Source: Clostridia bacterium DTU030 (lineage in GTDB: Bacteria; Bacillota; DTU030). From it: a stretch of DNA of 35,291 nt. Numbering within the stretch: the first letter of the stretch is position 1; each line of letters opens with the position of its first letter. Below, piece by piece: positions 3 through 29,171 of the stretch. Under the pieces are notes generated by a model. The model made no database searches. It was not told the DNA's origin and saw only the letters and a program-made list of their open reading frames with translations. Made by a program: the position numbers and the translations under genes. The DNA lies in assembly GCA_001513125.1 (NCBI GenBank), contig LFSN01000098.1:8353-43643 (forward strand), given 5' to 3'.

Positions 3-59
3 TGGATCTTGGGGCAGGTATACCCCGAGACGGGAGGCGAATTGGTAAGTGAAGATTGA
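3..59 (+). CDS. C-terminal tail of an unidentified upstream gene (partial)
   Basis: Only the last 18 codons of a possible gene enter the window, ending at the TGA at 57-59. Of the three forward frames, this one has the most G/C-rich third positions, matching the neighbouring genes. It would overlap the GTG start of fmdD by 11 bases, which suits the overlap style of this operon. The residues visible (ending GGELVSED) are too few to name a family. In other organisms ferredoxin or other fmd/fwd subunits can sit here, but nothing in the sequence shows that. Confidence 0.35.
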   Translation, partial: WILGQVYPETGGELVSED

Positions 60-390
60 AGTTGTTTTGATTACAGGGAGAACTATTAAACAAGGGATGG
101 GTATATACACGGGCAAGGATTCCGTCCTCTACCGGCAGGAGACGGAAACAATTGAGCTCAACGCTGCGGTGCTGGAGGGCCTGGGGGTCGAGGAAGGGGA
201 CCGGGTGCTGGTCAAAACCGCCTTTGGCCAGGGTGTCTTTACCTGCCGCAAGGGCGAGGTGCCGGAGAATGTAGCCTTTATTCCCTACGGCCTGGCGGGC
301 AACAGCCTCATCGGCGCCGGCACCAGCGGGAGCGGCATGCCCAGCTACAAGGGGATAACTGCGGTGGTGGGGAGGTACGAAGATGGCTAA
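49..390 (+). CDS. fmdD: Formylmethanofuran dehydrogenase subunit D (molybdopterin dinucleotide-binding)
   Basis: A 113-residue protein of the FwdD/FmdD type: a stand-alone molybdopterin-dinucleotide-binding beta-barrel domain. In archaeal formylmethanofuran dehydrogenase it clamps the bis-MGD cofactor together with subunit B. The N-terminal 'VVLITGRTIKQG' and the later 'LGVEEGDRVLVKT' stretch are typical of this fold. The start is GTG at 49, with GGGAGG about 11 bases upstream. The stop overlaps the fmdB start by 8 bases, so the two are probably translationally coupled. Naming caution: in methylotroph literature FhcD means the formyltransferase, which is a different protein. As I recall, hydrolytic Fhc complexes have no such MGD-binding subunit, so its presence argues for a cofactor-loaded enzyme. 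Confidence 0.88.
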   Translation: MKIEVVLITGRTIKQGMGIYTGKDSVLYRQETETIELNAAVLEGLGVEEGDRVLVKTAFGQGVFTCRKGEVPENVAFIPYGLAGNSLIGAGTSGSGMPSYKGITAVVGRYEDG

Positions 391-1705
391 GGTAGTAAAG
401 AATGTGGTCTGCACCTTTTGCGGCTCCCTCTGCGACGATTTGGAAATCCACATCGAAAATGACAATATAACCGCCGTCAAGAAGGGCTGTGCCCTCTCCC
501 GGACTAAATACCTTAATGCCCGGGAAGAGGTGGTACCCCTGGTGGAGGGGAAGGAAGCAAGTTTTTCCGCAGCCCTGGAGGCGGCGGTGGAAATTTTGGC
601 CCATGCCCGCCACCTCCTCGTCTACGGCCTGTCCAGCACCTGCTCCGAGGCCCAGGCGGCGGCCGTGGCCCTGGCCGAGACCCTGGGGGCCAGCATCGAT
701 TCCACCTCTTCCGTCTGCCACGGCCCCGGAACCCTGGCCAAGCAGCTGGTGGGCATCCCTACCTGCACCCTGGGGGAAGTGAAAAACCGGGCCGATGTCC
801 TGGTCTTCTGGGGCTGCAACCCGGTGGAGGCCCATCCCCGCCACTTTGCCCGCTATTCGGTCCTGGCCAAGGGCTTGAAGGTGGGCGGCCGCAGGGAGCG
901 GAAGGTGGTGGTGGCCGATGTCCGGAAGACGGCCACGGCCAGGGGGGCCGATCTCTTTTTGCAGCTTGAACCCAACGGGGACTTTGAAGTCCTGACGGCC
1001 CTGCGGGCCCTGATCAACGGCAAGGATATTGTGGGGGAAGGGGCCGGGGGCCTGACCCGGGCCCAGCTGGAAGAGTGCAGCCGGCTCCTCAAGGAGGCCA
1101 GCTACGGCGTCTTCTTCTTTGGGATGGGCCTGACCATGAGCCGGGGAACCCACTACAATGTCAGCCAGGCCCTGGCCCTGGTCCGGGATTTGAACAAGTA
1201 CACCCGCTACTCCGTTATCCCCATGCGGGGCCACGGCAATGTGGCCGGGAGTGAAAATGTCCTGGCCTGGCAGACGGGCTATCCCTTCGCCGTCAACTTC
1301 AGCCGGGGCTATCCCCGCTACAATCCCGGGGAGTTCACCGCCGTGGACCTCCTCCGGCGGGGGGATGTGGACGCCGCCCTGGTGGTGGCGGCCGACCCGG
1401 CGGCTACCTTCCCGGGTCGGGCGGCAGCCGTCCTGGGGGAGATTCCCACTGTCGTCATCGATCCCCACTATTCGGCCACGGCCAAGTTAGCCCGGGTCTA
1501 CCTGCCCTCGGCGGCGGCGGGAATCGGGGCGGCGGGCACCGTCTACCGGATGGACATGGTGCCCCTGCCGGTGAAGAAGTTGCTCAACCTGCCCTATCCC
1601 AGTGATAAGGAGATCCTGGATATGCTGCGGGAGGGGGTGAAGAAATGCTCCGGATCAAGGGAGGCCGGGTCTACGACCCGAAAAATGGCTGGAACGGGGA
1701 AATAA
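383..1705 (+). CDS. fmdB: Formylmethanofuran dehydrogenase subunit B (W/Mo catalytic subunit)
   Basis: A 440-residue catalytic subunit of the FwdB/FmdB family (molybdopterin oxidoreductase superfamily), which reversibly reduces CO2 to formate at a tungsten or molybdenum bis-MGD centre. Near the N-terminus, Cys10-x2-Cys13-x3-Cys17-x18-Cys36 forms a complete [4Fe-4S] motif. The 'SSVCHGPGTL' motif (Cys112) matches the Cys/Sec metal-ligand site of archaeal FwdB. Both sites are intact, unlike what is reported for the hydrolytic FhcB of Methylobacterium. The ATG at 383 has GGAGG upstream and overlaps fmdD by 8 bases. The 3' end overlaps fmdA by 61 bases, so the last 20 residues (after 'GVKKC') are encoded in the overlap and may be a lineage-specific tail. 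Confidence 0.93.
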   Translation: MAKVVKNVVCTFCGSLCDDLEIHIENDNITAVKKGCALSRTKYLNAREEVVPLVEGKEASFSAALEAAVEILAHARHLLVYGLSSTCSEAQAAAVALAETLGASIDSTSSVCHGPGTLAKQLVGIPTCTLGEVKNRADVLVFWGCNPVEAHPRHFARYSVLAKGLKVGGRRERKVVVADVRKTATARGADLFLQLEPNGDFEVLTALRALINGKDIVGEGAGGLTRAQLEECSRLLKEASYGVFFFGMGLTMSRGTHYNVSQALALVRDLNKYTRYSVIPMRGHGNVAGSENVLAWQTGYPFAVNFSRGYPRYNPGEFTAVDLLRRGDVDAALVVAADPAATFPGRAAAVLGEIPTVVIDPHYSATAKLARVYLPSAAAGIGAAGTVYRMDMVPLPVKKLLNLPYPSDKEILDMLREGVKKCSGSREAGSTTRKMAGTGK

Positions 1706-3273
1706 GGGATATCTGCATCAAGGATGGAAAGATAGTGGAAGATCTTCCGGCCGCAGAGGAGGTCATCGATGCCACAGGCCTGGTGGTCATGGCCGGAGGG
1801 GTGGACATCCACGCCCACATAGCCGGGCCCAAGGTCAACACCGGCCGGGTCATCTGCCCGGAGGACCACCGGAGGGATCCTGTGCCCAGAACTGCCCGGA
1901 CCAGGAGCGGTTCCGGCTTTACCACCCCTTCCACCTTTGTCACCGGCTACCGCTACGCCCAGATGGGCTACACCTCCGTCTTTGAAGCGGCCATGCCCCC
2001 CCTGGAGGCCCGCCACGTCCACGAGGAGCTGGCCGACACCCCCATCCTGGACAAGGGGGCCCTGGTCCTGGTGGGAAACAACCACTTTGTCCTCAGTTTT
2101 ATCCGGGAGGGGGACCGGGAGCGGCTCAAGGATTACCTCCTCTGGGTCGTGGAGGCCAGCGGCGCCTACGGCCTCAAGGTGGTAAACCCGGGGGGAGGGG
2201 CCAACTGGCGGCGGCACAGCAATGTCCGGGGGCTGGACGATGCGGTAATCGACTACGGCGTCACCCCCCGCCAGATCATCGAGACTCTCCTGGATGTCAA
2301 TGAGGAACTGGGCCTGCCCCATGCTCTGCACCTTCACTGCAACAACCTGGGCCAGCCCGGCAACCTCCCGACGACCCTGGCCACCATGGACCTGGCCGCG
2401 GGGCGGCGGCTCCACATCACCCACCTCCAGTTCCATGCCTACGGGGAGGGGAAGAAGGGCTACCCCCTCCTTTCGGGGGCCGAGGACCTGGCGGCCGTGG
2501 TCAATGCCAATCCCAACATCACCATCGACGTGGGCCAGGTGGTCTTTGGACCGGCCACCACCATGACGGCCGATGCCCCCCTCCAGTATGAACTCTTCCA
2601 GAAGGGGGGCGGGGACCGCTGGGTCAATAAGGATGTGGAGCTGGAGACGGGCTCGGGAATTGTGCCCATAACCTACAGCCCCAAGAGCTTCGTGGGGGCC
2701 TGCCAGTGGCTCATCGGCCTGGAACTCTTCCTCCTCATTGAAAATCCCGAGCAGGTCTTCCTGACCACCGATCATCCCAACGCCGGGCCCTTTACCGCCT
2801 ATCCCCAGATCATCCGCCTCCTGATGGACCGGGATTACCGGGAGGAAAGGATTGCCCAGCTGCCCAAGAAGGCGGTGGAGGCCACCGGCATCAAAAACCT
2901 GCAGCGGAAATACACCCTGGGTGAGATCGCCGCCATGACCAGGTCCGGCCCGGCCCGGGTCCTGGGCCTGGAAAAGAAGGGGCACCTGGGAGTGGGGGCC
3001 GATGCCGATGTGGTCGTCTACCGGCCCCAGGCCGACTACGAGGCCATGTTTGCCAACCCCCTCTATGTTTTTAAGGAGGGCCAGCTGGTGGTCCAGGAGG
3101 GGCAGATCGTCGCCGCCCCCCGGGGGAAAACCTTTGTCCCCGAAATAAGGGGGGGGAAGGACGTCACTTCCTGGCTGGCGCCCCAGTTTGAACAGTTCTA
3201 CAGCATTGCCCTGGAGAACTACCCGGTGGACCGGGAGTGGTTCTCCCCCTGGGAGGTGGTTCCATGCAAATAG
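1645..3273 (+). CDS. fmdA: Formylmethanofuran dehydrogenase subunit A (dinuclear metal amidohydrolase)
   Basis: A 542-residue amidohydrolase-fold subunit of the FwdA family, which condenses formate with methanofuran (or hydrolyses formylmethanofuran). Metal-site residues are visible: His56-x-His58 in 'VDIHAHIAGP', Lys178 in 'GLKVVNPGG' (the carboxylated lysine position of FwdA), histidines in 'HLHCNNLGQ' (229, 231) and 'THLQFHAYG', and Asp376 in 'LTTDHPN'. The start 'MLRIKGGRVYDPKNG' aligns with the usual FwdA start, so the ATG at 1645 is preferred even though it lies 61 bases inside fmdB. It overlaps the next gene (ftr) by 10 bases. Confidence 0.94.
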   Translation: MLRIKGGRVYDPKNGWNGEIRDICIKDGKIVEDLPAAEEVIDATGLVVMAGGVDIHAHIAGPKVNTGRVICPEDHRRDPVPRTARTRSGSGFTTPSTFVTGYRYAQMGYTSVFEAAMPPLEARHVHEELADTPILDKGALVLVGNNHFVLSFIREGDRERLKDYLLWVVEASGAYGLKVVNPGGGANWRRHSNVRGLDDAVIDYGVTPRQIIETLLDVNEELGLPHALHLHCNNLGQPGNLPTTLATMDLAAGRRLHITHLQFHAYGEGKKGYPLLSGAEDLAAVVNANPNITIDVGQVVFGPATTMTADAPLQYELFQKGGGDRWVNKDVELETGSGIVPITYSPKSFVGACQWLIGLELFLLIENPEQVFLTTDHPNAGPFTAYPQIIRLLMDRDYREERIAQLPKKAVEATGIKNLQRKYTLGEIAAMTRSGPARVLGLEKKGHLGVGADADVVVYRPQADYEAMFANPLYVFKEGQLVVQEGQIVAAPRGKTFVPEIRGGKDVTSWLAPQFEQFYSIALENYPVDREWFSPWEVVPCK

Positions 3274-4148
3274 AGGGCGTAAAGATCAAAGACACCTTTG
3301 CCGAAGCCTTTTCCCTCTACGGCACCCGCCTCATCATCACTGCCATAAATCGGAAGTGGGTCATGGAAGCGGCCCGGAGTGTCACCGGCTTTGCCACCTC
3401 CATCATCGGCTGCGGCTGTGAGGCGGGCATCGAGATGGAACTGGCAGGAGAAGATACCCCCGACGGGCGTCCCGGGGTGGCCGTCCTCATCTTCTCCGTC
3501 TCCCCGGAAGAACTGGAGAAGCAGCTGGTGGCCCGCCTGGGCCAGGCCATTATGACCTGCCCCACCACGGCCTGCTACAACGGCCTGCCCACGGAGAAAC
3601 GGCTGGAGGTCGGGGCCAAGATCCGCTTTTTCGGGGACGGCTGGCAGGCCAGCAAGCTGGTGGGGGAGACCCGCTACTGGCGCATCCCCGTCATGGACGG
3701 GGAGTTTGTGGTGGAGGAAGGTTTCGGCTACTGCAAGGGGGTGGGGGGCGGCAACTTCCTCATCCTGGCCGAGAGCCAGGAGGCAGGCCTGGAGGCCGCA
3801 ACTTGTGCGGTAGAAGCCATGGGGCAGGTGCCCGGGGTAATCCTCCCCTTCCCCGGCGGGGTGGTCAGGAGCGGCAGCAAGGTGGGGTCCAGGTACAAGT
3901 TCCTGACGGCTTCCACCAACACTCCCTACTGTCCCACCCTGGCAGGAAGGGTGGCTTCGGAGCTTCCTCCCAATGTCAACTGTGTCCTGGAGATCGTCAT
4001 CGACGGCCTGAACCTGGAAGCGGTGGAGGAGGCCACCCGGGTGGGGATCAGGGCCGCCTGCCGGCCCGGGGTAGTGGAGATTACCGCCGGCAACTACGGC
4101 GGCAAGCTGGGGAAATACCATATCCATCTCCACAAGGTTATGGGGTGA
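3264..4148 (+). CDS. ftr: Formylmethanofuran:tetrahydromethanopterin formyltransferase
   Basis: A 294-residue protein (the family is usually 296-298) that transfers the formyl group between methanofuran and N5 of H4MPT. The N-terminus 'MQIEGVKIKDTFAEAF' and the following 'ATSIIGCGCEAGIE' stretch match archaeal Ftr and methylotroph FhcD. I chose the ATG at 3264 because GGGAGG lies at 3251-3256 and this start reproduces the family N-terminus. A GTG at 3237 in the same frame would add nine residues not seen in the family. It overlaps fmdA by 10 bases and precedes fmdC by 4 bases, so all Fmd subunits and Ftr are co-expressed. Confidence 0.95.
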   Translation: MQIEGVKIKDTFAEAFSLYGTRLIITAINRKWVMEAARSVTGFATSIIGCGCEAGIEMELAGEDTPDGRPGVAVLIFSVSPEELEKQLVARLGQAIMTCPTTACYNGLPTEKRLEVGAKIRFFGDGWQASKLVGETRYWRIPVMDGEFVVEEGFGYCKGVGGGNFLILAESQEAGLEAATCAVEAMGQVPGVILPFPGGVVRSGSKVGSRYKFLTASTNTPYCPTLAGRVASELPPNVNCVLEIVIDGLNLEAVEEATRVGIRAACRPGVVEITAGNYGGKLGKYHIHLHKVMG

Positions 4149-4152
4149 GAAA

Positions 4153-4974
4153 ATGGCGACACTGCATTTACAACTGAAAGCACAACCGGAAGTCCCCTTG
4201 GAAGCCGACTGTCTTTCCCCTTCGGCCCTGGCGGGGAAGACCCTCAAGGAGATTGCGGCCCAGCCCCTCCTCTACGGCAACGGCCGGGCCCAGCTGGGGG
4301 ATTTCTTCAGCCTGTCCGGGAGCCTGGCCGACGGGCACCTGCACCTGGAAGGGGACCTCTCCCGGGTGAAATATATCGGGGCCGGCATGGAGGGCGGCCT
4401 CCTGACCATTGATGGAACCGTGGGCATGCACCTGGGCTCCGGGATGGCGGGGGGAGAGATCCGGGTCCAGGGGCAGGTGGGCGACTGGCTGGGGGCCGAG
4501 ATGAAGGGCGGCCTCATCTGGGTGGAAGGAAAGGTGGGCCACCTGGCCGGGGCCGGCTACCGGGGAGAAAAGATGGGCATGACCGGGGGGACCATCATTA
4601 TTAAGGGGTCGGCGGGAGACGAGGTGGGGGCCCGGATGCGCCGCGGCCTTATAGTAGTCACCGGGGACTGCGGCGATTTTCCCGGCGTCGAGATGCGGGC
4701 GGGGACTATCATGGTCTGGGGTAAGGGGGCGGCCCGGCCGGGGGCCAACATGCGGCGGGGGACCCTTGTCCTGGCCCACCGGCAGGAGCTCCTGCCCACC
4801 TTTGTCTACAACTGCACCTACCGGCCCGTATTTTTGCACCTCATCTGGCGCCACCTGCAGGAACTGGGGCTGGCCGTGCCGGAACACCTCCGGCAGGCCT
4901 TCTACGAGCGTTATCTCGGTGACATCAATGAAGTGGGGAAGGGGGAGATCCTCCTGTGCCAGAGCTTAAGCTGA
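4153..4974 (+). CDS. fmdC: Formylmethanofuran dehydrogenase subunit C
   Basis: A 273-residue structural subunit of the FwdC/FhcC family. From about residue 60 to 210 it consists of six to seven repeats of roughly 20 residues of the form G-x2-M-x-GG-x-I-x-V-x-G-x2-G (for example 'GAEMKGGLIWVEGKVG'). This is the right-handed beta-helix shared with the C-terminal domain of glutamate synthase. A C-terminal alpha/beta tail follows. In archaeal Fwd and bacterial Fhc this subunit scaffolds A and B. The ATG at 4153 follows the ftr stop by 4 bases, and the 3' end overlaps mch by 19 bases. No iron-sulfur or cofactor residues are expected and none is seen. Confidence 0.93.
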   Translation: MATLHLQLKAQPEVPLEADCLSPSALAGKTLKEIAAQPLLYGNGRAQLGDFFSLSGSLADGHLHLEGDLSRVKYIGAGMEGGLLTIDGTVGMHLGSGMAGGEIRVQGQVGDWLGAEMKGGLIWVEGKVGHLAGAGYRGEKMGMTGGTIIIKGSAGDEVGARMRRGLIVVTGDCGDFPGVEMRAGTIMVWGKGAARPGANMRRGTLVLAHRQELLPTFVYNCTYRPVFLHLIWRHLQELGLAVPEHLRQAFYERYLGDINEVGKGEILLCQSLS

Positions 4975-5918
4975 ACGAAAGGGCCCAGGCTATGGTCCGC
5001 CAGCTGGTTGCCGATAGGGAGAGCCTGGGGATAGAAGTTACCAACCTGCCGGAGGGGAGCCTTCTGGTAGATGCCGGCATCAACTGTCCCGGGAGCCTGG
5101 AGGCGGGGCGCCTCCTGGCCGAGATCTGCCTGGGGGGCCTGGGACGGGTGGAGCTGGTTCAACTCTTCTTTACTGACTTCTGGCTGCCGGGGGTCCAGGT
5201 CACCGTCCAGCAGCCGGCTCTGGCCTGCATCGCCTCCCAGTATGCCGGCTGGGCCCTGAAGGGGGAGGGCTTTTTTGCCTTGGGTTCGGGGCCGGCCCGG
5301 GCCCTGGCGGCCAAGGAAGAGGTATTCCAGGCCCTGGGTTACCAGGAGAATAGCCCGGTGGGGGTTTTGGTCCTGGAGACCCGGAAAGTCCCCCCGGCCG
5401 CTGTGGTTGAGAAGGTGGTGGCGGCCTGCGGCCTTGGGCCGGAGAATCTTTCCCTTCTGGTGGCCCCCACCGCCTCCCTGGCCGGTTCCGTCCAGGTGGC
5501 GGCCCGGGTGGTGGAAACGGGCCTTCACAAGCTGATGGAGCTGGGCTATGATCTAGGCAAGATAACGGCGGCCTTTGGCACCTGCCCCCTGGCCCCCCTG
5601 GCGGCGGAGGATTTAGCGGCCATGGGCAGGACCAACGACGGGGTTTTGTATGGAGGCCGCTGTTTTTATACCGTGACCGACCCAGAGGAGGAGATCGTCG
5701 AGATCCTGCCCAGGGTACCCTCCCTGGCCTCCCGGGATTACGGGACACCCTTCTTGAAGCTCCTGGAGCAGTACGGGGATTTTTATAAGATCGATCCCCT
5801 CCTCTTCAGCCCGGCGGAAGTTGTCATAAATAACACGGCCACCGGGAAGGTCCACCGGGCCGGACGGGTGGCTCCGGACCTCCTCAAGGAGTCCCTGCTG
5901 GGGGTGGCAAAGGATTGA
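4956..5918 (+). CDS. mch: Methenyl-tetrahydromethanopterin cyclohydrolase
   Basis: A 320-residue protein (usual length for Mch) that interconverts 5-formyl-H4MPT and 5,10-methenyl-H4MPT. It shows the family features 'LNERAQAMVRQLV' near the start, 'LVDAGINCPGSLEAGRLLAEICLGGLG', and 'PALACIASQYAGWAL'. The start is GTG at 4956, with a GGGGGAG ribosome site about 10 bases upstream. The gene overlaps fmdC by 19 bases. The stop TGA overlaps the TTG start of the next gene (TTGA). Together with Fmd and Ftr it completes CO2/formyl to methenyl-H4MPT. The next enzymes (Mtd, MtdB or Mer) are not in the window. Confidence 0.94.
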   Translation: MPELKLNERAQAMVRQLVADRESLGIEVTNLPEGSLLVDAGINCPGSLEAGRLLAEICLGGLGRVELVQLFFTDFWLPGVQVTVQQPALACIASQYAGWALKGEGFFALGSGPARALAAKEEVFQALGYQENSPVGVLVLETRKVPPAAVVEKVVAACGLGPENLSLLVAPTASLAGSVQVAARVVETGLHKLMELGYDLGKITAAFGTCPLAPLAAEDLAAMGRTNDGVLYGGRCFYTVTDPEEEIVEILPRVPSLASRDYGTPFLKLLEQYGDFYKIDPLLFSPAEVVINNTATGKVHRAGRVAPDLLKESLLGVAKD

Positions 5919-6796
5919 AGATCGGGATAATAAGCGGGGGCGAGGGCTGGCATGTGCAGAAACTGGCCGGGGCCTTCCGGGAGCGGGGGGCGGAGGTGGG
6001 AACCTACCGCATTACCGCCCTGACGGCCCGGGAAGGCCGCAGGCAGGGGCTCTACTGCCGAAATCAAACCCTGGATGACTGCCATGCCCTCCTGGTGCGG
6101 ACCATCCCCGGGGGCTCCCTGGAACAGATCATTTTCCGGATGGATGCCCTCCACTGCCTGGAAAAGAGGGGGGTCTATCTCTTCAACCCCCCCAAGGTGG
6201 TGGAAAGGACCGTCGACAAATACTACACCACCTCCCTCCTGGCCACGGCGGGCCTGCCCACCCCGCCCACAGTGGTGACGGAAAACTATTCCGAGGCCAT
6301 GGCCGCCTTTGCCGAACTGGGGGAAGATGTGGTGGTCAAGCCCCTCTTTGGCTCCCTGGGCCGGGGGATGGTGCGGGTGACCGACCCCGACACGGCCCAC
6401 CGGGTCTTCCGGGCCCTGGATCTGGGCCGCTATGTCTACTACCTGCAGCAGTTCGTTCCCCATGACAACCAGGATCTCCGGGTCTTTGTCCTGGGGGGCC
6501 GGGTGGTGGGGGCCATGCTCCGGCGGGGGGATTCCTGGAAGACCAATATCGCCCTGGGGGCCCGGCCCCAGGCCGTGACCCTCCGGCCCGAAGAGGAGGA
6601 ACTAGCCCTGGAGGCGGCCCGGGTCCTGGGGGCGGCCTATGCTGGGGTGGATCTCCTCCGGTCCCGGGAGGGGGAGCTCTATGTCCTGGAGGTCAACGGG
6701 ATTCCCGGCTGGCAGGGCCTGCAGGAAGTGTGTGAGGTGGACGTCGCCGGGGAAATCGCTGACTATGTCTTAAAGGAGTTGGCAGGGAGAAGGTAA
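5915..6796 (+). CDS. RimK/MptN-like ATP-grasp ligase, probable cofactor glutamyl ligase
   Basis: A 293-residue ATP-grasp protein. An N-terminal pre-ATP-grasp domain is followed by 'FNPPKVVERTVDKYYTT', the ATP-binding loop 'VVVKPLFGSLGRGMVRV', 'DLRVFVLGGRVVGAMLRRG', and the Mg-binding 'VLEVNGIPGWQGL'. The pattern closely follows methanogen MptN (H4MPT:alpha-L-glutamate ligase). ATP-grasp genes of this type also occur in H4MPT clusters of methylotrophic bacteria. Likely role (inference): ATP-dependent amide-bond formation in the side chain of H4MPT or methanofuran. The TTG start overlaps the mch stop, which indicates coupling. It could also act on another substrate, because RimK-type ligases are diverse. 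Confidence 0.82.
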   Translation: MKIGIISGGEGWHVQKLAGAFRERGAEVGTYRITALTAREGRRQGLYCRNQTLDDCHALLVRTIPGGSLEQIIFRMDALHCLEKRGVYLFNPPKVVERTVDKYYTTSLLATAGLPTPPTVVTENYSEAMAAFAELGEDVVVKPLFGSLGRGMVRVTDPDTAHRVFRALDLGRYVYYLQQFVPHDNQDLRVFVLGGRVVGAMLRRGDSWKTNIALGARPQAVTLRPEEEELALEAARVLGAAYAGVDLLRSREGELYVLEVNGIPGWQGLQEVCEVDVAGEIADYVLKELAGRR

Positions 6797-6810: not shown

Positions 6811-7692
6811 GTGAAACCGGAGGAAGTGGCCAAGGCTGTGGAGCTGGCCTGCATGGTGGAGGTCCTGGCCCCCAAGCCGGGCAATGTAAACCGCTATCAG
6901 GACTTTGTCGATACAACCTGCGAAGATTTTCTCCTCAGTGCCTGGGCCGTCGGCCCGGTCTTTGCCCGGGCCGACAGCCTTTCGGTGGGGGAGTTGATCT
7001 ATCAGGCCCGGCGGGCTGTCCAACGGTATGTGGCGGCCAATACCAATCTGGGCATCATCCTCCTCACGGCTCCCCTGGCCAAGGCGGCCCTCCTGCCAAA
7101 GGACTTACCCCTGCAGGAGCGGCTCCGGCAGGTCCTGGCGGGCCTCACAGTGGAGGACAGCAGATGGGTCTTTGCCGCCATCAGGGAGGCCGGAGCCGGG
7201 GGCCTGGGGAAGGTGGACCAGCAGGATGTCGGCGGGGAACCCAGCCTGCCCCTGCTGGCCGCCATGGAACTGGCCCGGGAGCGGGATACCATAGCTGCCG
7301 AGTACTGCACCGGTTTCCACCACACCTTTACCACCGGCTATCCGGCCCTGCAGGAAGCCCTGGCCCTCCTTCCCGACTGGCGCCTGGCGGTAGTACAGGC
7401 CTTTTTAGTTATTTTGGCCGCCCTGCCCGACACCCTCATCGCCCGCAAGGTGGGCTGGGAGAGGGCCTGGGAGGTGTCCCGCCGGGCGGCGGAGGTTCTG
7501 GCAGCGGGGGGCGTGGCCACAGCGGGGGGGCGCCGGGTCCTGGCCGCCTTCGACAGTTTCTTGCGCCGGGAGGGAAACAAGCTCAACCCCGGTACCACCG
7601 CCGATCTCACCGCTGCCTCCCTGCTGGTGTACTTTTTGGAAGAGGGTTACGATGGCTTTTTCAGGGGAGGGAAATGCTATGATCTTGGCTAA
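6811..7692 (+). CDS. CitG/MdcB-like (triphosphoribosyl-dephospho-CoA synthase family) protein of the H4MPT cluster
   Basis: A 293-residue protein with the hallmarks of the CitG-like family: 'EVLAPKPGNVNRYQDF', 'NTNLGIILLTAPLAKAAL', 'FTTGYPAL', 'DTLIARKVG' and the C-terminal 'GTTADLTAASLLVYFLEEG'. Classical CitG makes the prosthetic group of citrate lyase, but no citrate or malonate lyase genes are nearby. Related proteins are found in archaea and in H4MPT gene clusters of methylotrophs, so a step in H4MPT or methanofuran assembly is inferred, with the reaction unknown. The GTG start at 6811 lies 14 bases after the previous stop, with a purine-rich AAAGGGGG in the gap. The 3' end overlaps folE2 by 14 bases. 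Confidence 0.8.
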   Translation: MKPEEVAKAVELACMVEVLAPKPGNVNRYQDFVDTTCEDFLLSAWAVGPVFARADSLSVGELIYQARRAVQRYVAANTNLGIILLTAPLAKAALLPKDLPLQERLRQVLAGLTVEDSRWVFAAIREAGAGGLGKVDQQDVGGEPSLPLLAAMELARERDTIAAEYCTGFHHTFTTGYPALQEALALLPDWRLAVVQAFLVILAALPDTLIARKVGWERAWEVSRRAAEVLAAGGVATAGGRRVLAAFDSFLRREGNKLNPGTTADLTAASLLVYFLEEGYDGFFRGGKCYDLG

Positions 7693-8644
7693 AGACGTGC
7701 AGAACAGCAAACCACGGGTCCGTGTCAGCCTGAACCGGGTCGGCATCACCGGGATTACCAAGATTATTACCATCGGCAGCGGGGAGCGGGCCAACCTCTT
7801 TTATTCAGAACTGGATCTGTACGTGGATCTTCACCCGGACAGGGCCGGCGTCCACATGTCCCGCTTCGGCGAAGAGATCATTGCCGCCGTGGACGAGGTG
7901 GTGAAACAACGGGCCCTGGATATTGAATCCTTCACCAGCGGCCTGGCAGCGGCCGTCCTGGAGCGGCAGGAGGCCTTCCGGTCCGAGGTTCTGGTCCGGG
8001 CCAAGTATCCGGTAGAGAAGAAGACACCCGTCTCCCGCCTGGCCACCCAGGACATCTGCACCCTCATCGGCATGGCAGCGGCCCGGGAGGGCCGGGGTCG
8101 GGTCCTGGTGGGCGTGGAAGTTGCCGGGCTGACGGCCTGCCCCTGTGCCCAGGAGATGGTCCGGGCCTACACCTGGGATGAGCTCCTGAAGGCGGGCTTT
8201 ACCGTCAAAGAGGTGGAAGAGGTTTTAAAGGTGGTCCCCCTGGCCTCCCACAACCAGCGGGGGAAGGGAACCCTCCTTTTGGGGACCAAAGAGAAGATCG
8301 AAGCCCAGGACCTGGTGGCCATCGTAGAAGAATCCATGAGCTCACCCATTTACGACCTGTTGAAGCGGCCCGATGAGTTCCATGTAATCAAAGAAGCCCA
8401 CCAGCAGCCCCGTTTTGTGGAGGATGTGGTCCGCCACATGGTAGAACAGGTGGTGGAAAGGTTCCCCAATCTGGAAGATGAGGCCTTCCTTTTGGCCAAG
8501 CAGGTGAATTATGAGGGGATTCACAGCTATGACGTCTTTGCCGAAAAGCACGGGACTTTGGGTGAGATCAGAAGGGAGGTGCTCCAGGGAGAGCATGTGA
8601 CCAGGTCCACGGATCTGGCTGCCTGGCTCGATCCCTGGAATTGA
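7679..8644 (+). CDS. folE2: GTP cyclohydrolase, FolE2/MptA type
   Basis: A 321-residue type IB GTP cyclohydrolase, the first step from GTP to dihydroneopterin-type pterins. Family motifs are 'RAGVHMSRFGEE' near residue 56, 'AGLTACPCAQEM' with Cys144 and Cys146 (metal/active-site cysteines), and 'SHNQRGKGTLLL'. The ATG at 7679 is chosen because GGGGAGGG lies at 7664-7671. The longer in-frame ATG at 7652 lies upstream of that ribosome site. It overlaps the CitG-like gene by 14 bases and is followed after one base by the DUF1464 gene. Bacterial FolE2 and archaeal MptA belong to one family. The operon context suggests that this copy feeds H4MPT synthesis, but it may serve folate too. Confidence 0.92.
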   Translation: MILAKDVQNSKPRVRVSLNRVGITGITKIITIGSGERANLFYSELDLYVDLHPDRAGVHMSRFGEEIIAAVDEVVKQRALDIESFTSGLAAAVLERQEAFRSEVLVRAKYPVEKKTPVSRLATQDICTLIGMAAAREGRGRVLVGVEVAGLTACPCAQEMVRAYTWDELLKAGFTVKEVEEVLKVVPLASHNQRGKGTLLLGTKEKIEAQDLVAIVEESMSSPIYDLLKRPDEFHVIKEAHQQPRFVEDVVRHMVEQVVERFPNLEDEAFLLAKQVNYEGIHSYDVFAEKHGTLGEIRREVLQGEHVTRSTDLAAWLDPWN

Positions 8645-8645
8645 T

Positions 8646-9737
8646 ATGGCGCGGGTGGTAGGGATAGATCCCGGTACCGTCAGCTTTGATCTCTTCGGCT
8701 GGGAAGAGGGGGAGGTTTTCCTGGACGCCTCCATTCCCTCCCGGCAGGTTGCCGAGGACCCGGAAGGCATCCTGGCCCTCCTGGAGGAGGGCGGCCCCCT
8801 GGATTACATTGCCGGCCCCTCGGGCTACGGCCTGCCCCTGGTCAGTGTCCGGGAGGTGGGGGAACGGGAAATGTTCCTGATGACCCTGGTGGAGGCCGAG
8901 GAGAGGAAGGAAATCCCCGTCCTGGCGGGGATGGAGAGGATGATCAACTTGGCCCGGGAGCGGGAGCTGCCCCTCTTTTTTACCCCGGCCGTCATCCACA
9001 TGCCCACCGTTCCACCCTGGCGCAAGGTAAACCGCATCGATATGGGGACCACCGACAAGCTCAACTGTGCCATCCTGGCCATTTACGACCAGGCCCGCCA
9101 GTATAATATACCCTATGGGGAGACCTCCTTTGTCCTGGCCGAGGTGGGCGGTGCCTACACCACAGTGGTGGCCGTCCAGGGGGGCCAGGTGGTGGACGGC
9201 ATCGGCGGCTCGGTGGGGGCGCCGGGCTTTCGCTCCCCGGGGGCCCTGGACGGTGAGTTGGCCTACCTTTTGGGGCAGGTCACCAAGGGCACCCTCTTTA
9301 AGGGCGGGGCCCTGGATGTGGCCGGGGATGCAGAGCTCACCCCGGCTGAATTTGCCGCCCGCCTGCAAGGGGGGGATGGGCGGGTGCGGGAAGCCTGGGA
9401 AATGCTGGTAGAAGGGGTGGCCAAGTTTGTGGCCGCCGAGCTGACCCTGGTTCCCGGCGCCCGGGAAATAATCCTCTCCGGCCGTCTGTGCCGGGAGCCC
9501 CTCCTCTTACAGGACCTGGAGGAAAGGCTCCGGCTTCTGGCCCCCGTCCGGCGGGTTACTTCCTTGGCGGCCGAGGCCAAGGAGGCGGCCCAGGGGGCTG
9601 CCCTGCTGGCGGCAGGGCTGGTGGGGGGCGAGACGGCGCCCCTGGTGGAGAACCTGCGGATCCGGGAGGCGGCCGGCACCGTCCTAGATTATATTTGTCC
9701 CTGGGGCAAAGAGCTCAAAGGGAGGTTTGGGATTTGA
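8646..9737 (+). CDS. DUF1464-family ASKHA protein (archaeal-type, function unknown)
   Basis: A 363-residue protein. The N-terminal 'VVGIDPGTVSFDLFGW' looks like an ASKHA-fold phosphate-1 loop. 'VNRIDMGTTDKLNCAILAIYDQA', 'LAEVGGAYTTVVAVQGGQVVDGIGGSVGAPG' and a C-terminal 'REIILSGRLC' complete an actin-like ATPase core. This matches DUF1464, known mainly from archaea and sometimes labelled predicted butyrate kinase. It starts one base after the folE2 stop, and its own stop overlaps the folB TTG start, so it lies inside a pterin-synthesis operon. A kinase or ligase step in H4MPT or methanofuran synthesis is the most economical inference. No catalytic role is demonstrated for the family that I can cite. 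Confidence 0.72.
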   Translation: MARVVGIDPGTVSFDLFGWEEGEVFLDASIPSRQVAEDPEGILALLEEGGPLDYIAGPSGYGLPLVSVREVGEREMFLMTLVEAEERKEIPVLAGMERMINLARERELPLFFTPAVIHMPTVPPWRKVNRIDMGTTDKLNCAILAIYDQARQYNIPYGETSFVLAEVGGAYTTVVAVQGGQVVDGIGGSVGAPGFRSPGALDGELAYLLGQVTKGTLFKGGALDVAGDAELTPAEFAARLQGGDGRVREAWEMLVEGVAKFVAAELTLVPGAREIILSGRLCREPLLLQDLEERLRLLAPVRRVTSLAAEAKEAAQGAALLAAGLVGGETAPLVENLRIREAAGTVLDYICPWGKELKGRFGI

Positions 9738-10099
9738 CAGACCGGATTATTTTGGCGGGGATGAATTTTTGGGGTTACCACGGGGTGCGGCCCGAGGAAA
9801 ACAGCCTGGGGCAGCCCTTTATCATCGATCTGGAACTCTACTTGGATTTGCAGCAGGCCGGCCGGAGCGATGACCTGGAGGACACTGTCAGCTACAGCCT
9901 GGTCTACCGGCTGGTAAAGGAGATTGTGACGGGAAAGCCCCGCCGCCTGCTGGAGAATATTGCAGAGACCATAGCCGCCAGGGTCCTGGAGGAGTTCCCG
10001 GTCCAGGAGGTGCTGGTGCGGGTAAAAAAACCCCACGTCCCCCTGCCGGGGATAGTGGACTATGCGGCGGTGGAGATCCGGAGGGGGAGGACGAGGTGA
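9734..10099 (+). CDS. folB: Dihydroneopterin aldolase
   Basis: A 121-residue protein of normal FolB length, converting dihydroneopterin to 6-hydroxymethyl-dihydropterin. The start 'MTDRIILAGMNFWGYHGVRPEENSLGQ' and the C-terminal 'VLVRVKKPHVPLPGIVDYAAVEI' are typical. The active-site glutamate region (HGV-x-PEE) and the KP-x-VP motif are present. The TTG start at 9734 has GGGAGG about nine bases upstream and overlaps the DUF1464 stop (TTGA). The in-frame ATG at 9761 would remove the conserved first strand. It overlaps folK by 4 bases (GTGA). Confidence 0.92.
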   Translation: MTDRIILAGMNFWGYHGVRPEENSLGQPFIIDLELYLDLQQAGRSDDLEDTVSYSLVYRLVKEIVTGKPRRLLENIAETIAARVLEEFPVQEVLVRVKKPHVPLPGIVDYAAVEIRRGRTR

Positions 10100-10590
10100 A
10101 GGAGGTTTATCTCGGCCTGGGGAGCAACCTGGGGGAGCGGAAGGGCTATATTAAGGGGGCCCTGGCCGGGCTGGCTCGAGCCGGTGTGGCCATTGATGGG
10201 GTTTCCTCCCTCTATGAGACGGAACCGGTGGGCTATACCGACCAACCCCCCTTTTACAATGCCGTGGCCCGGGGCCTTACCGGCCTGCAGCCCCGGCAGC
10301 TTTTAAATGCCGTCCTGGCCATCGAAAAAGAACTGGGCCGCCGGCGGGACATCCGCTGGGGGCCCAGGACCATTGATATCGATATCCTTCTCTACGGCCA
10401 GGAGGTCTTCCAGGAGGAAGATCTCTTAATACCCCACCCCCGCCTGGCCGAACGGGCCTTTGTCCTCATACCTCTCTTGGAACTGGCTCCTTCCCTCTCC
10501 CTACCCGACGGGCGGAAGATAGCTGATCTGGTCAAGGCGGTGGATAGCAGAGGGGTAAAAAGGATTGGTAATCTGGGCTGGCTCCCTTGA
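10096..10590 (+). CDS. folK: 6-hydroxymethyl-7,8-dihydropterin pyrophosphokinase
   Basis: A 164-residue HPPK that activates 6-hydroxymethyl-dihydropterin with ATP to the pyrophosphate used by dihydropteroate synthases. The family signatures are 'YLGLGSNLGERKGYI' at the N-terminus, 'PPFYNAVARG', and 'RWGPRTIDIDILLYG' around residues 87-101, with Mg-binding Asp94/Asp96. The GTG start overlaps folB. It is the last gene of the plus-strand C1/pterin operon. The product could feed both folate and the dihydropteroate-synthase-like H4MPT enzyme encoded on the opposite strand about 1 kb away. Confidence 0.93.
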   Translation: MKEVYLGLGSNLGERKGYIKGALAGLARAGVAIDGVSSLYETEPVGYTDQPPFYNAVARGLTGLQPRQLLNAVLAIEKELGRRRDIRWGPRTIDIDILLYGQEVFQEEDLLIPHPRLAERAFVLIPLLELAPSLSLPDGRKIADLVKAVDSRGVKRIGNLGWLP

Positions 10591-11522: not shown

Positions 11523-11528
11523 AATAAT

Positions 11529-11558
11529 TGTCAATTGCCAACTGTCAATTGTCAATTG
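11529..11558. repeat. Three copies of TGTCAATTG
   Basis: TGTCAATTG occurs at 11529-11537, 11543-11551 and 11550-11558. The last two overlap the 3' end of the DHPS-like coding region, so the repeat supplies that protein's last residues and its stop codon. Two inverted copies (CAATTGACA) occur at 22892-22907, so this is a dispersed intergenic repeat of the genome. Confidence 0.6.
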
Positions 11559-12870
11559 ATAAATAGCCCCATGCCAGCTCCTGCTCCTGCAAATACTTCT
11601 TCCCCAACTGCAGGGCCAGCTGGGCCTTGTAGAGCTCCCGGCCCAGGTAGAAGGCGTGGCCCGGATCGTCTATTTCCAGCTGGGAAAAGAGCTCATCGGC
11701 TTTAGTTCCCGTAAGATAAATATCCCGGTTAAAGAGGTGGATTTTCCCCTCAGCGGTAAAGATGCGGAAATTGCGGTCCTTTACCAGCCGCTGCATAGCC
11801 GCAAGTTCCTCGCCGCTGTAGCCATCCAGCCGCCTGTCCTTACAGGTAACCAGGTCGTTGGAGAGGTTCTTCGGGGGAGAACCCCTCTTTTTTGCCCGGT
11901 GGACGAGGCGGCGGGCCAGGGCCGCTTCCCGGACGGCACCCCTGGTCCGGTGGGAGGCCTCGGTGGTCAGGACATAGTCGATGCCCAGCTCCACAGCCAC
12001 CCCCATCAGGAGGGCGTTGATCCCGGTGCTGTCGGCATCGGTGAGTTCCGTCACATTGCCGATGCCCATGAGGAAGGGCTTGTCCGGGTATTGCTGGCGG
12101 GCTGCAAAGATGCGGTGGAGGGAGGCGGAAAAACCAAAGTTGATGGGATCCAGGATGGGATCCAGGATAATGGAGGCCCCCGCCCCCTCGGCGGCGGCCG
12201 CATTGGCCACCAGGGAAGCCAGCCCCTGGCCAAAGTCGGGGATGACCACCACGGGGCAGGAAAGCTCCTGGGCCAGGTGGAGGTTGGTAGAGTTGATGCT
12301 GAGGATCATGTCGACCCCCATCCTGCCAGCCCTGAGGATTTCCTCCTCCCGGAAGGAATCCAGGCTGACCCGGAAGCCCTCTTCTTTGAGGGCGAAAATT
12401 ACCTCCTCCAGGTGCGGGAATTCCCTTTCCACACAGGAGCCCAGGTCGATGATATCGGCCCCTTCCTCCCGGTAGTAGCGGGCCCGCTCCCGGATCTGGT
12501 CGGTGGTAAGGTAGGGGGCGTCGACAATCTCGGCCAGGATCTGGGGCACCGTGGGCTCCTCCTGGTTATCTTCCACCTTCTCACCGTAAAAGGCCGGCAG
12601 GTCCTTAAGGTCCTTAGGTCCCTGGACCACCGGCACCCCCAGGTGGCGGGAGAGCTTTTCCAGATCCACCCGGCAGAGGCCGGGGAGGACCACTTGGGAA
12701 TACTCCTGGCAGGGGGGGAGGTTGTGGCAGAGGAAATCGGTATTCATCAGGGCCGCCACGCTGATGTTGAGGGTGACCACCGTGCCCCCCAGTTCGGCGG
12801 GCATCTGGGCCAGGGTGTCCTTGAGGGCCTGGGATGCCAGCCTGCCGGTTACAAATAGGCGTCGAGACAT
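11545..12870 (-). CDS. Archaeal-type dihydropteroate synthase-like protein, probable H4MPT biosynthesis
   Basis: A 441-residue protein resembling the DHPS-related family of methanogens and H4MPT-containing bacteria. An N-terminal domain ('LFVTGRLASQALKDTLAQMP', residues 1 to about 100) precedes a DHPS-like TIM barrel ('RYYREEGADIIDLGS', 'VSLDSFREEEILRA', 'SIILDPILDPINFGF', 'FLMGIGNVTELTDADS'), followed by a C-terminal domain of about 80 residues. Inferred role: joining hydroxymethyl-dihydropterin to a ribofuranosyl-aminobenzene unit in place of p-aminobenzoate. The start at 12870 has GGAGG upstream. An upstream extension to 13041 would read through the flavoprotein gene. It overlaps that gene by 22 bases. 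The final codons lie in a TGTCAATTG repeat. Confidence 0.82.
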   Translation of the reverse strand: MSRRLFVTGRLASQALKDTLAQMPAELGGTVVTLNISVAALMNTDFLCHNLPPCQEYSQVVLPGLCRVDLEKLSRHLGVPVVQGPKDLKDLPAFYGEKVEDNQEEPTVPQILAEIVDAPYLTTDQIRERARYYREEGADIIDLGSCVEREFPHLEEVIFALKEEGFRVSLDSFREEEILRAGRMGVDMILSINSTNLHLAQELSCPVVVIPDFGQGLASLVANAAAAEGAGASIILDPILDPINFGFSASLHRIFAARQQYPDKPFLMGIGNVTELTDADSTGINALLMGVAVELGIDYVLTTEASHRTRGAVREAALARRLVHRAKKRGSPPKNLSNDLVTCKDRRLDGYSGEELAAMQRLVKDRNFRIFTAEGKIHLFNRDIYLTGTKADELFSQLEIDDPGHAFYLGRELYKAQLALQLGKKYLQEQELAWGYLSIDN

Positions 12871-13367
12871 TTTTCCAGTTCCTCCATTCCGGAAACTACT
12901 ATTACCCCGGGAAAACTTTTCAGCCGGGCGGTATTTTCCAGGTCGATGGGCCGGGGAAAGAGCTGCACCATGCCCCGGGGCCCGGGGGAGGTCACCTCCT
13001 CCTCCTGATCGCTGGGCAGGACAATTATGGGCACCCGGCATTTCCCGGCGTGGGCAAAGAGGTTCGTGACGAGGGTGTCGGAGATCCCGGCCACAAATTT
13101 GGCAACGGAATTGGAGGTGGCCGGGGCGATGATCAGGACCTTATAGTAGCCGTTGTAAAAACGGCCGATGACCGGTGCGCTGTAGGCCCCTTCCCGGTAG
13201 AGGCGCACCCCGGGGCCATGGAGCTGTTCCGGGTCAAATTTGTAGATTTTCATAACTTCCACGGCGGCCCGGGAGAGAAAAACATCCACCCGGGGGAGCT
13301 TCCTGATCAGGGCCAGGTTTTCTTCCAGGAAATGGCCGCAGCCCGTTATGCCCCAAGCAATGGTCAC
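12849..13367 (-). CDS. Flavoprotein, dihydromethanopterin reductase (DmrB/AfpA)-like
   Basis: A 172-residue flavoprotein of the homo-oligomeric flavin-containing decarboxylase fold. 'WGITGCGHFLEENLALI' at the N-terminus and 'VLIIAPATSNSVAKFVAGISDTLVTNLFAHAGK' (the flavin-binding PATSN-type motif) match archaeoflavoprotein AfpA and dihydromethanopterin reductase DmrB. Its place just ahead of the DHPS-like gene supports reduction of dihydromethanopterin to H4MPT, the last step of cofactor synthesis. The GTG start at 13367 has GGAG nine bases upstream. An unrelated FMN-dependent decarboxylase (PpcD/UbiX type) is the alternative, but the context argues against it. Confidence 0.82.
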   Translation of the reverse strand: MTIAWGITGCGHFLEENLALIRKLPRVDVFLSRAAVEVMKIYKFDPEQLHGPGVRLYREGAYSAPVIGRFYNGYYKVLIIAPATSNSVAKFVAGISDTLVTNLFAHAGKCRVPIIVLPSDQEEEVTSPGPRGMVQLFPRPIDLENTARLKSFPGVIVVSGMEELEKCLDAYL

Positions 13368-27715: not shown

Positions 27716-28447
27716 CTAGTAGAACATCTCCCCGGCCAAGAACTCCCTGGTCCTTTTCTGGCTCGGGTTGGTGAAAAAGTTCTCCTTATCGTTGATTTCT
27801 ACCACCCGCCCTTCCTCCAGGAGGCAGATCCGGTCGCCCACCCTTTTGGCCTGGAAGTGGTTGTGGGTAATCCAGACCACCGTCGGTTTCTTTTCCATGT
27901 ATTTGGTCATCATGTCTTCGATTATCCTGATATTATTGGGATCCAAATTGGCGGTGGGTTCATCGAGGAGGATTACCCGGGGCTTAAAGACCAGGGCCCG
28001 GGCCAGGGCCACCCGCTGGGCTTCACCGCCCGACAGGGTGGTACAGGGCCGGTGGAGGAGCTGGGCAATGGACAGCTCCTCGACAATGGCCATTACTTCT
28101 TCCCTATCCACCTTCTGCCCCCTGATCTTGAGGGGGTAGATGATGTTATTCCACACGCTCTCCTTCAACAGGGCCGGGCGCTGGAAAACCGTGGTAATCT
28201 CCCGCATTATTTCCAGGGGCGGGTTAAAGTTTTCCTTTGTATACTTTACGCCGCCGTAATACACTTCTCCTGCCGTGGGCTCCTCCAGAAAATTGAGGAT
28301 GCGCAGGAGGGTGGTTTTCCCTGCCCCGCTTGGGCCCAGCAGGCAGAAGATTTCCCCCCTGTAGAGGGTAAGGTCGTCGATTTTCAGGGTAAAGCCTGGG
28401 TATTCCTTGACCAGCCCTTTGATCTGGTATGTTATCATCTTCTCCAT
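27716..28447 (-). CDS. tupC: Tungstate ABC transporter ATP-binding protein
   Basis: A 243-residue ABC ATPase: Walker A 'LLGPSGAGKTTLLRIL', Q-loop 'VFQRPALL', signature 'TLSGGEAQRVALARAL', Walker B 'VILLDEPTANLD' and H-loop 'VWITHNHFQA'. It powers the TupB permease. The ATG at 28447 has AGAGGA upstream; the longer reading to 28561 runs into tupB and is rejected. The pairing with tupA, tupB and a ModE-like regulator supports the substrate class. Confidence 0.9.
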   Translation of the reverse strand: MEKMITYQIKGLVKEYPGFTLKIDDLTLYRGEIFCLLGPSGAGKTTLLRILNFLEEPTAGEVYYGGVKYTKENFNPPLEIMREITTVFQRPALLKESVWNNIIYPLKIRGQKVDREEVMAIVEELSIAQLLHRPCTTLSGGEAQRVALARALVFKPRVILLDEPTANLDPNNIRIIEDMMTKYMEKKPTVVWITHNHFQAKRVGDRICLLEEGRVVEINDKENFFTNPSQKRTREFLAGEMFY

Positions 28448-28472
28448 GATCCTATCCTCTGCTGCAAGATTT

Positions 28473-29171
28473 TTACCGGGCAAATAGATCCCTTTCCTGG
28501 AGCTGGAGCATGGCCAGGTTGGCCAGGAAGGTGATGGCCAGCAGGATGATGCCAAAGACAATGGCCACGCCGAAATTGCCCTTCCTCGTTTCCAGGACGA
28601 TGGCGGTGGTTAAGACCCTGGTCTTGCCCTCGATGTTTCCTCCCACCAGCATGACGGCCCCCACCTCGGAGATGATCCCCCCAAAGCCGGCGATAATGGA
28701 GACCAGGACGCCGATCCGGGCCTCCTTGATGGCCGCCCAGGCAGCCTGGGCCCTAGTAGCTCCCAGGGCCTTGAGCTGCTGGATGAGATTCTGGTCCACC
28801 GCCATGACGGCGGCCATGGTAAAGCCGGCCACCAGGGGGAAGGCTATGATGGTCTGGGCCATTATCATGGCTTTCACGGAAAAGAGCCAGCCCAAATGGC
28901 CCAGGGGGCCGACGGAGGAGAGGAGGAGAAAGGTAAAGAGGCCGATGACCACCGGGGGAAAGCCCATACCCGTGTAGAGGAGGGCCGTAACTATGGGTTT
29001 GCCCGGAAAATCAGTCAAGCCCAGGAAGGCCCCCAGGGGAACCCCCACCAGGGTGCTGAGGATGAGGGCCACCCCTGTCACGTTGAGGGAGACCATGATG
29101 ATATCCATCACATAGGGGTCCCGGGTTACCAGGAGGTATATGGCTTCCTGGAGACTGGCCAGCAAACTCAC
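28473..29171 (-). CDS. tupB: Tungstate ABC transporter permease
   Basis: A 232-residue membrane protein with five to six helices and the ABC-permease EAA-like loop around 'LKALGATRAQAAWAAIKEARIGVLVSIIAGFG', ending 'EVGAVMLVGGNIEGKTRVLTTAIVLET'. This is characteristic of TupB/WtpB-type oxyanion permeases. The GTG start at 29171 has GAGGCG about eight bases upstream. It lies between tupA (29-base gap) and tupC (25-base gap). Confidence 0.9.
   Translation of the reverse strand: MSLLASLQEAIYLLVTRDPYVMDIIMVSLNVTGVALILSTLVGVPLGAFLGLTDFPGKPIVTALLYTGMGFPPVVIGLFTFLLLSSVGPLGHLGWLFSVKAMIMAQTIIAFPLVAGFTMAAVMAVDQNLIQQLKALGATRAQAAWAAIKEARIGVLVSIIAGFGGIISEVGAVMLVGGNIEGKTRVLTTAIVLETRKGNFGVAIVFGIILLAITFLANLAMLQLQERDLFAR

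Follow-up and report, generated by a model that had tools for sequence, protein, structure and literature searches.

A tetrahydromethanopterin- and methanofuran-type one-carbon gene cluster in a spore-forming lineage of the Bacillota

The DNA analyzed here, called the window throughout, is a stretch of 35,291 nucleotides from Clostridia bacterium DTU030. It comprises bases 8353-43643 of a contig of 45,258 bases (LFSN01000098.1, assembly GCA_001513125.1), and the genome of 1.81 Mb is distributed over 144 contigs and is 94.9% complete. At the start of the window, six genes for one-carbon (C1) metabolism linked to tetrahydromethanopterin (H4MPT) and methanofuran follow one another on the forward strand. 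The first is fmdD (fwdD; 49..390), encoding the molybdopterin-dinucleotide-binding subunit of formylmethanofuran dehydrogenase. It is followed by fmdB for the catalytic tungsten/molybdenum subunit (383..1705; TIGR03129, 513 bits, cut-off 328), fmdA for the amidohydrolase subunit, the formyl-carrier hydrolase (1645..3273; TIGR03121, 741 bits, cut-off 393), ftr for formylmethanofuran:H4MPT formyltransferase (3264..4148, with 3264 as the likely start in an open reading frame (ORF) from 3237; TIGR03119, 436 bits, cut-off 293; domains FTR and FTR_C), fmdC for the GXGXG subunit C (4153..4974; TIGR03122, 267 bits, cut-off 131), and mch for methenyl-H4MPT cyclohydrolase (4956..5918; TIGR03120, 389 bits, cut-off 229). 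The genes are contiguous and overlapping or closely spaced, and their Pfam and NCBIfam names agreed with the original prediction, which had been made from the sequence alone. The NCBIfam equivalog cut-offs were passed by five of the six genes. FmdD was weaker than the other members; it passed only the cut-off of a Pfam domain (Molydop_binding, 46 bits, cut-off 26.8) and scored 74 bits with the NCBIfam FwdD tungsten model, below the cut-off of 175. The grouping of fmdABC, ftr, and mch is that of the bacterial H4MPT/methanofuran one-carbon module.

The active sites of the encoded proteins were compared with those of solved structures. FmdB aligned with the tungsten formylmethanofuran dehydrogenase chain 5t5i_B (E 2e-127), and all five key cysteines were present, namely the ligands of the [4Fe-4S] cluster (Cys10, 13, 17, and 36) and the metal ligand Cys112. 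All five were kept in 35 of the 87 FmdB-like copies that were extracted. In five further copies (Gracilibacter, G308, G237, a Pirellulales, and a Gemmataceae; loci L070, L135, L136, L092, and L093, from Bacillota and Planctomycetota) an in-frame TGA takes the place of the codon for the metal ligand. The best reading of this codon is that it probably specifies selenocysteine; in a search for selenocysteine insertion elements, RNA folding 3’ of the TGA codons yielded z-scores of -1.1 to -2.1 for the five 45-nt pieces. Within the phylum of the host, named Bacillota included, 14 FmdB copies were extracted, and the metal position was Cys in ten, TGA in three, and lost in one. The metal Cys is absent from the FhcB-type copies of methylotroph loci, and FhcB is redox-inactive. 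With its [4Fe-4S] cysteines and its metal Cys, the FmdB of the window fits the Fwd/Fmd type and not the Fhc type. FmdA matched 5t5i_A (E 4e-162) and contained H56, H58, K178, H231, H260, and D376 (own numbering), which we take to be the putative ligand residues and which were kept in 84 of 88 copies. Mch matched PDB 1qlm (E 5e-91).

On the reverse strand of the window, genes resembling those of a tungstate transporter were found. They encode a TupA-like tungstate-binding protein (29201..30052; TupA model 231 bits, below the cut-off of 400) that matches the solved tungstate-binding protein PDB 3lr1 (E 2e-76), a TupB-like tungstate/molybdate permease (28473..29171; TupB model 157 bits, below the cut-off of 320), and an ABC ATPase as candidate TupC (27716..28561; ABC_tran 107 bits). 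Because FmdB keeps the Fe-S and metal cysteines and tungstate-transporter-like genes are nearby, CO2/formyl redox chemistry is likely, and FmdABCD is likely to be a tungsten-dependent, redox-active enzyme. As an aside on the metal position, the FmdB of one Caldisericota locus (L068) aligns a Trp with the metal Cys, and that of another (L060) is intact.

The operon run extends beyond the six genes originally recognized, downstream to the end of folK at 10590. The additional genes encode an mptN-like ATP-grasp ligase, assigned as H4MPT glutamate ligase (5915..6796; NF040720, 261 bits, below the cut-off of 350), a CitG-like transferase that is a recurrent partner of H4MPT clusters across the loci (6811..7692; CitG 241 bits), the archaeal-type GTP cyclohydrolase MptA of the first H4MPT synthesis step (7682..8644, ORF from 7652; TIGR00294, 302 bits, cut-off 220), a DUF1464 protein with a weak butyrate-kinase-like match (8646..9737; PF07318, 334 bits), the dihydroneopterin aldolase FolB (domain at 9740..10099, ORF from 9488; TIGR00525, 121 bits), and the hydroxymethyl-dihydropterin pyrophosphokinase FolK (10096..10590; TIGR01498, 153 bits). 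Downstream of folK lies a gene pair that is inverted relative to the operon. One gene encodes a DHPS-like protein (DUF6513 plus pterin-binding domain) as a candidate for the pterin-coupling step of H4MPT synthesis (11545..12873, start chosen from a 442-aa congener protein, ORF 11545-13041; TIGR00284, 197 bits, below the cut-off of 257). The other encodes an AfpA/dihydromethanopterin-reductase-type flavoprotein as a candidate for the last step (12849..13367; TIGR02700 109 bits and TIGR02699 104 bits, both below cut-off; Flavoprotein 77 bits). Upstream of fmdD the order (locus L002) is CBS, DUF447, RFAP synthase (MptG), a sigma-54 regulator, DUF2193, an MtdB-type dehydrogenase, and an ATP-grasp ligase, followed by a run of 47 N that ends one base before position 1 of the window. 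MtdB resembles the NADP-dependent enzymes 6tge and 1lu9 (E 3e-78). Genes for H4MPT synthesis are present in the host, with mptA and the RFAP synthase family above cut-off.

The host belongs to the endospore-forming Bacillota, in line with the named Bacillota that also carry the cluster. Two spore germination genes, a GerAC gene (33090..34274; PF05504, PF25198) and a GerAB-type permease gene (34281..35219; TIGR00912, 179 bits, cut-off 140), are located on the reverse strand of the same window and the same contig as the fmd genes, as had been predicted. Elsewhere in the genome, a Spo0A equivalog (399 bits, cut-off 200) adjoins SpoIVB (488 bits, cut-off 305) in a neighborhood as in relatives. Spo0A_C was present in all 18 genomes tested, and among 14 controls only in Bacillus subtilis. 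Together with the intact-looking FmdB, these markers bear out the proposal of a complete operon for the CO2/formyl-to-methenyl-H4MPT segment in an endospore-forming lineage. The six operon genes have a GC content of 58-66% and a third-position GC (GC3) of 0.72-0.83, which overlaps the GC3 of the ger genes (0.77 and 0.80); the values of the spo0A locus genes are 49-59% and, for GC3, lower at 0.55-0.66. The contig C40 of the congener G334 (5.8 kb) matches window positions 11523-16985 at 82% nucleotide identity and carries the DHPS-like and AfpA-type genes. It ends before the fmd genes, and their absence from G334, which is 87% complete, may be an assembly gap. The spo0A locus of the host is 81-84% identical to that of the congener G313, a similar distance.

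Mch was found in 25 and FTR_C in 17 of 398 genomes of the phylum. Neither was found in two congeners or in two genomes of the same family, and G243 was the only one with Mch/FTR_C among the eight listed genomes of the same class. The FTR matches are distributed over 11 family codes, of which f48 and f79 are represented solely by partial matches. The H4MPT-module trait is, therefore, patchy but widespread in the phylum. In G243 the order DUF2193-mtdB-ATPgrasp-fmdD-B-A-ftr-fmdC-mch-mptN-citG-mptA-DUF1464-folB-folK plus the inverted DHPS-like gene is the same as at the window. In a scan of named genomes, the best 80 of 569 matches gave 79 loci, and among the matches listed the cluster or parts of it occurred in Halanaerobium, Gracilibacter sp. 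BRH_c7a, Synergistales, Anaerolineales, Caldisericota, Syntrophaceae, Desulfobacteraceae, Acidobacteria, and known methylotrophs. Loci of Halanaerobium, Gracilibacter, Synergistota, Chloroflexota, Caldisericota, and Desulfobacterota agree with the window in relative gene order, some of them with inserted genes. The segment fmdD-B-A-ftr-C-mch is free of intervening cluster genes in Halanaerobium, Gracilibacter, Caldisericota (L060), and Acidobacteria (L073); pterin-synthesis genes are inserted between fmdA and ftr in Synergistota (L074, L089), Anaerolineales (L058), Syntrophaceae (L061), and Desulfobacteraceae (L062). A variant order, mptG-ATPgrasp-ftr-fmdD-fmdB, was observed in L139, L141, L142, and L143, and L139 has another ftr farther along.

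Phylogenies of FmdA plus Ftr and of Mch were calculated, as the original prediction had proposed, and in the former the operon grouped with its own phylum and not with archaea. The FmdA+Ftr tree comprised 68 rows and was made with a quick method and SH-aLRT support only; L085 and L145 are on long branches, and L056, L059, L064, L096, L103, L121, and L129 (several of them two-copy), as well as others by length, were left out. In this tree the window forms, with full support, a five-member group together with G243, G230, G148, and G076, which all belong to its phylum; the sequences of PDB 5t5i, a Methanocellales, and a Hadesarchaeon are found elsewhere, in one group with two Caldisericota. The Mch tree is in agreement as regards the window group, which there includes G243, G225, and G148 (support 99), but the sequences of the phylum form separate groups, the deep branches being weak. 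We conclude that the operon was acquired or retained before this genus and is not recent archaeal DNA. The phylum also contains a separate group of Mch paralogues (L011-L019, L021, L023-L025, and L028-L032), often with at least two per genome, and their loci of about 4 kb carry no other gene of the window cluster.

The characterized systems resemble the window in different respects. The archaeal tungsten enzyme FwdABCDFG (PDB 5t5i) shares the subunits A, B, C, and D and the compared residues, whereas the window operon has no recognized F/G ferredoxin gene and MtdB is encoded upstream; the archaeal route uses an F420-dependent Mtd in place of MtdB. The label "archaeal-type" that had been given to the operon thus fits the active site of FmdB, whereas gene order and MtdB are bacteria-like. 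Methylotroph Fhc (PDB 6s6y) has the same subunit types and the order B-A-Ftr-C, but FhcB-type copies do not have the metal Cys of the window FmdB, and Fae, which methylotrophs use, was not found in the window host. The isolate Halanaerobium polyolivorans Z-7514 (L063) has the order DUF2193-mtdB-ATPgrasp-fmdD-B-A-ftr-fmdC-mch-mptN-citG-mptA-folB-folK, as at the window, and in addition mfnB and formate-folate ligase (FTHFS), neither of which was found in the window host. A search of its description for six H4MPT-related terms gave none of them (PMC10536098).

Genes for H4MPT/methanofuran-linked C1 transfer have been reported for Firmicutes, Synergistetes, Chloroflexi, NC10, and others (Chistoserdova 2016, PMC5020050), with fwdD and Afp homologues retained in Firmicutes. 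The Firmicutes set, as far as described in the accessible portion of that paper, has the same gene kinds as the window, including fwdD and an Afp homologue, so that the "notable extension" of the known range that the operon had been expected to represent was already in print. The unfound folate enzymes, the unfound MfnB, and the FmdB residues come from the present analysis and go beyond that portion, in which the Firmicutes appear without genome-level context. An Actinobacterium from the Hakuba serpentinite has fwdDBA-ftr-fwdC in identical order, a FwdB with a [4Fe-4S] domain and Cys118, and no fwdF/G (PMC7325909). However, its genome encodes a folate Wood-Ljungdahl pathway with acetyl-CoA synthase (ACS) and no H4MPT synthesis genes were seen, whereas the window host does possess genes for H4MPT synthesis but yielded no ACS or FTHFS; the same article notes that the Hakuba FwdB lacks tungstopterin sequence motifs. 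Because the first paper lists Firmicutes and the second describes the same fwdDBA-ftr-fwdC order, the window module is an already known type of bacterial H4MPT gene set with a new host member. Among the papers listed in the literature searches, none dealt with missing folate C1 enzymes alongside H4MPT in a host of this kind, a weak negative because most subscription papers were out of reach.

The C1 metabolism of the host was analyzed further by searches for FolD, FTHFS, and MfnB in 27 genomes, of which 18 were included in the Spo0A_C search and 16 in a Pterin_bind/AcsE search. Sixteen carriers of the module were considered for Fae, MttB, FolD, FTHFS, and MfnB, namely 12 of the 17 FTR-bearing genomes plus four named genomes; the other five FTR-bearing genomes are G076 and four with partial, weak FTR matches (G047, G133, G153, and G286). 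FTHFS was found in 24 of the 27 genomes, including two congeners and two same-family genomes, in some as fragments, but not in the host genome. No clear FolD was found in the host either; a single 30-bit match (cut-off 27) lies in a 378-residue frame on contig C70, and matches of this kind, in longer proteins, also stand beside true FolD in class-mates. The sole Pterin_bind protein of the host genome is the DHPS-like protein of the window, and a canonical FolP was missing in all eight class members tested, the single-contig genome G021 included. MetH and an AcsE-type methyltransferase were not found in the host genome, nor was the CdhC/AcsB family (PF03598), for which two methanogens were positive among 14 controls that included no acetogen. 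As neither ACS nor FTHFS was found, the pathway is not Wood-Ljungdahl, and the folate Wood-Ljungdahl route that had been expected in this host was not recovered.

The congener G313 contains a single cluster (L185, G313:C29) with FTHFS, FchA, FolD, MetV, MetF, AcsE-like and weakly MtaA-like methyltransferases, and an MtgC-like corrinoid protein, which suggests methyl-group oxidation as a job in the genus.

Taken together, we consider it quite probable that the window encodes the H4MPT/methanofuran one-carbon module in the form found in anaerobic bacteria, here in a spore-former, and that the module exchanges C1 units between CO2 and methylene-H4MPT. Judging from its residues, FmdABCD would use low-potential electrons and a site with tungsten (or molybdenum) to interconvert CO2 and a formyl carrier. 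From family knowledge, Ftr would transfer the formyl group to H4MPT and Mch would convert the product to methenyl-H4MPT. By homology, MtdB, linked across the N run, would interconvert methenyl- and methylene-H4MPT with NAD(P), and the downstream genes would serve H4MPT synthesis. Beyond the observed gene content, gene order, catalytic residues, and phylogenetic place, we infer metal, direction, substrate, and electron partner, and we favor the view that C1 units derived from serine, glycine, or methyl groups are, on balance, oxidized to CO2. This would reduce NAD(P) and ferredoxin and would be reversible for biosynthesis.

Several observations weigh against this proposal. Fae, the marker of formaldehyde-oxidizing methylotrophy, was found in none of the 16 carriers, the host included; MttB was found in two of the 16 and not in the host genome, and was rejected as the entry point for methyl groups. 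No FwdF/G-type electron partner was recognized among the annotated operon genes. For the formyl carrier, MfnB of methanofuran synthesis (PF04476) gave no match in the host genome. The copy of FmdB in which the metal Cys was lost belongs to G076, a member of the tree group of the window. The mptN-, DHPS-, and Afp-type synthesis proteins scored under their cut-offs, and mtdB and fmdD are connected only through the N run, although G243 has the same order gap-free. The genome is 94.9% complete, and each gene absence is weak taken singly.

MfnB was missing in 9 of the 16 carriers (the host and 8 of the 15 others) and present in seven. Of the tree group, four members were tested (the host, G243, G230, and G148), and it was missing from all of them. 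A set of seven genomes, the host, G243, G148, G225, G230, G345, and G365, lacks it throughout, and other carriers of the phylum have it. Across 75 loci, cut at different lengths, DUF1464 alone occurred in seven, mfnB alone in 14, both in one, and neither in 53; a role of DUF1464 as a stand-in for mfnB is suggestive at best. That 9 of 16 carriers have no MfnB and all 16 have no Fae suggests that both the carrier route and the C1 substrate are of an unrecognized kind.

The strongest alternative concerns the direction, i.e., that the module fixes CO2 to methylene-H4MPT only for the biosynthesis of serine and thymidylate, as in archaea and in place of the folate ligase route. A host without FTHFS and with only the 30-bit FolD match would need another C1 source, and the Fmd-to-H4MPT reaction is reversible in archaea. 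CO2 fixation, however, needs an expensive low-potential donor, and the carriers G243, G308, and Halanaerobium (G398) retain both FTHFS and FolD, so that we regard this alternative as possible but as the less probable direction. A bolder proposal is that H4MPT replaced folate as the working C1 carrier and that the formyl carrier is made without MfnB, in which case a bacterium would have a C1 metabolism in the archaeal style, with a new carrier that either lacks the furan or is made in another way. It was considered because FTHFS, FolD, canonical FolP, MetH, and an AcsE-type enzyme were not found while the H4MPT synthesis set is nearly complete. H4MPT may indeed be the main C1 carrier of the host, and it is tempting to assume that its module replaces a folate cluster of the G313 type. 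Folate replacement was lowered from the main interpretation because G267 has neither FTHFS nor a clear FolD and yet no ftr or mch, and G243 has both systems; it was lowered further because FolP is missing in all class members tested and one assembly gap could remove a G313-type cluster with FTHFS, FolD, and AcsE-like genes. The combined proposal is unlikely.

A methylotroph-type Fhc complex, acting as formyltransferase/hydrolase and releasing formate in formaldehyde oxidation, would be in line with MtdB and with the B-A-Ftr-C order of methylotroph loci, e.g., Methylophaga muralis (L118). This reading is mostly refuted by the FmdB residues; in addition, the match with the FhcB chain 6s6y_B (60 bits, 361 residues) begins only at residue 54, and together with the lack of Fae this makes it very unlikely. 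Still less probable is a methyl branch of an archaeal-style Wood-Ljungdahl pathway, the role of Fmd-Ftr-Mch in archaea, as no CdhC/AcsB family, FTHFS, or AcsE-type methyltransferase was found in the host genome. Least probable of all is that archaeal or other DNA entered a Bacillota bin by contamination or by misassembly, the latter a hazard named in the original prediction: the patchiness of ftr and mch and the GC content of the operon genes would fit it, but the ger genes on the same contig and within the same GC3 range, the 82% match to G334 at a distance like that of the spo0A locus, and the FmdA+Ftr placement speak against it, and misassembly is unlikely because the congener G334 and the class-mate G243, with the same gene order and no N run, share parts of the region.

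The analysis thus speaks for a redox-active H4MPT module, probably linked to CO2, that occurs in spore-formers, beyond the archaea and the aerobic methylotrophs, and it raises the question of whether H4MPT can replace folate in a bacterium. The related cluster in the isolate H. polyolivorans makes enzymology feasible.

Some further features were noted. DUF2193 (L002:4743-6257) is a highly conserved neighbor of the cluster with 61-78% identity in six homologues and a Cys-rich C-terminus. Its predicted model is all-helical (mean pLDDT 75, 7-row alignment); Foldseek gave no PDB match at E <= 0.001, and a profile search against PDB sequences gave a best E of only 0.096. Two window ORFs on the reverse strand (31524-32699 and 18948-19910) had no Pfam or NCBIfam match. 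A locus titled Klebsiella pneumoniae (L095, a metagenome-assembled genome) has an fhc cluster of the methylotroph type, and its sister is a metagenome-assembled Gammaproteobacteria genome from Lake Baikal, so that the title is probably wrong. Window positions 17562-18284 encode an ECF transporter S component, whose likeness to the folate family is weak (41 bits, cut-off 60) and whose riboflavin-type Pfam match is stronger (149 bits).

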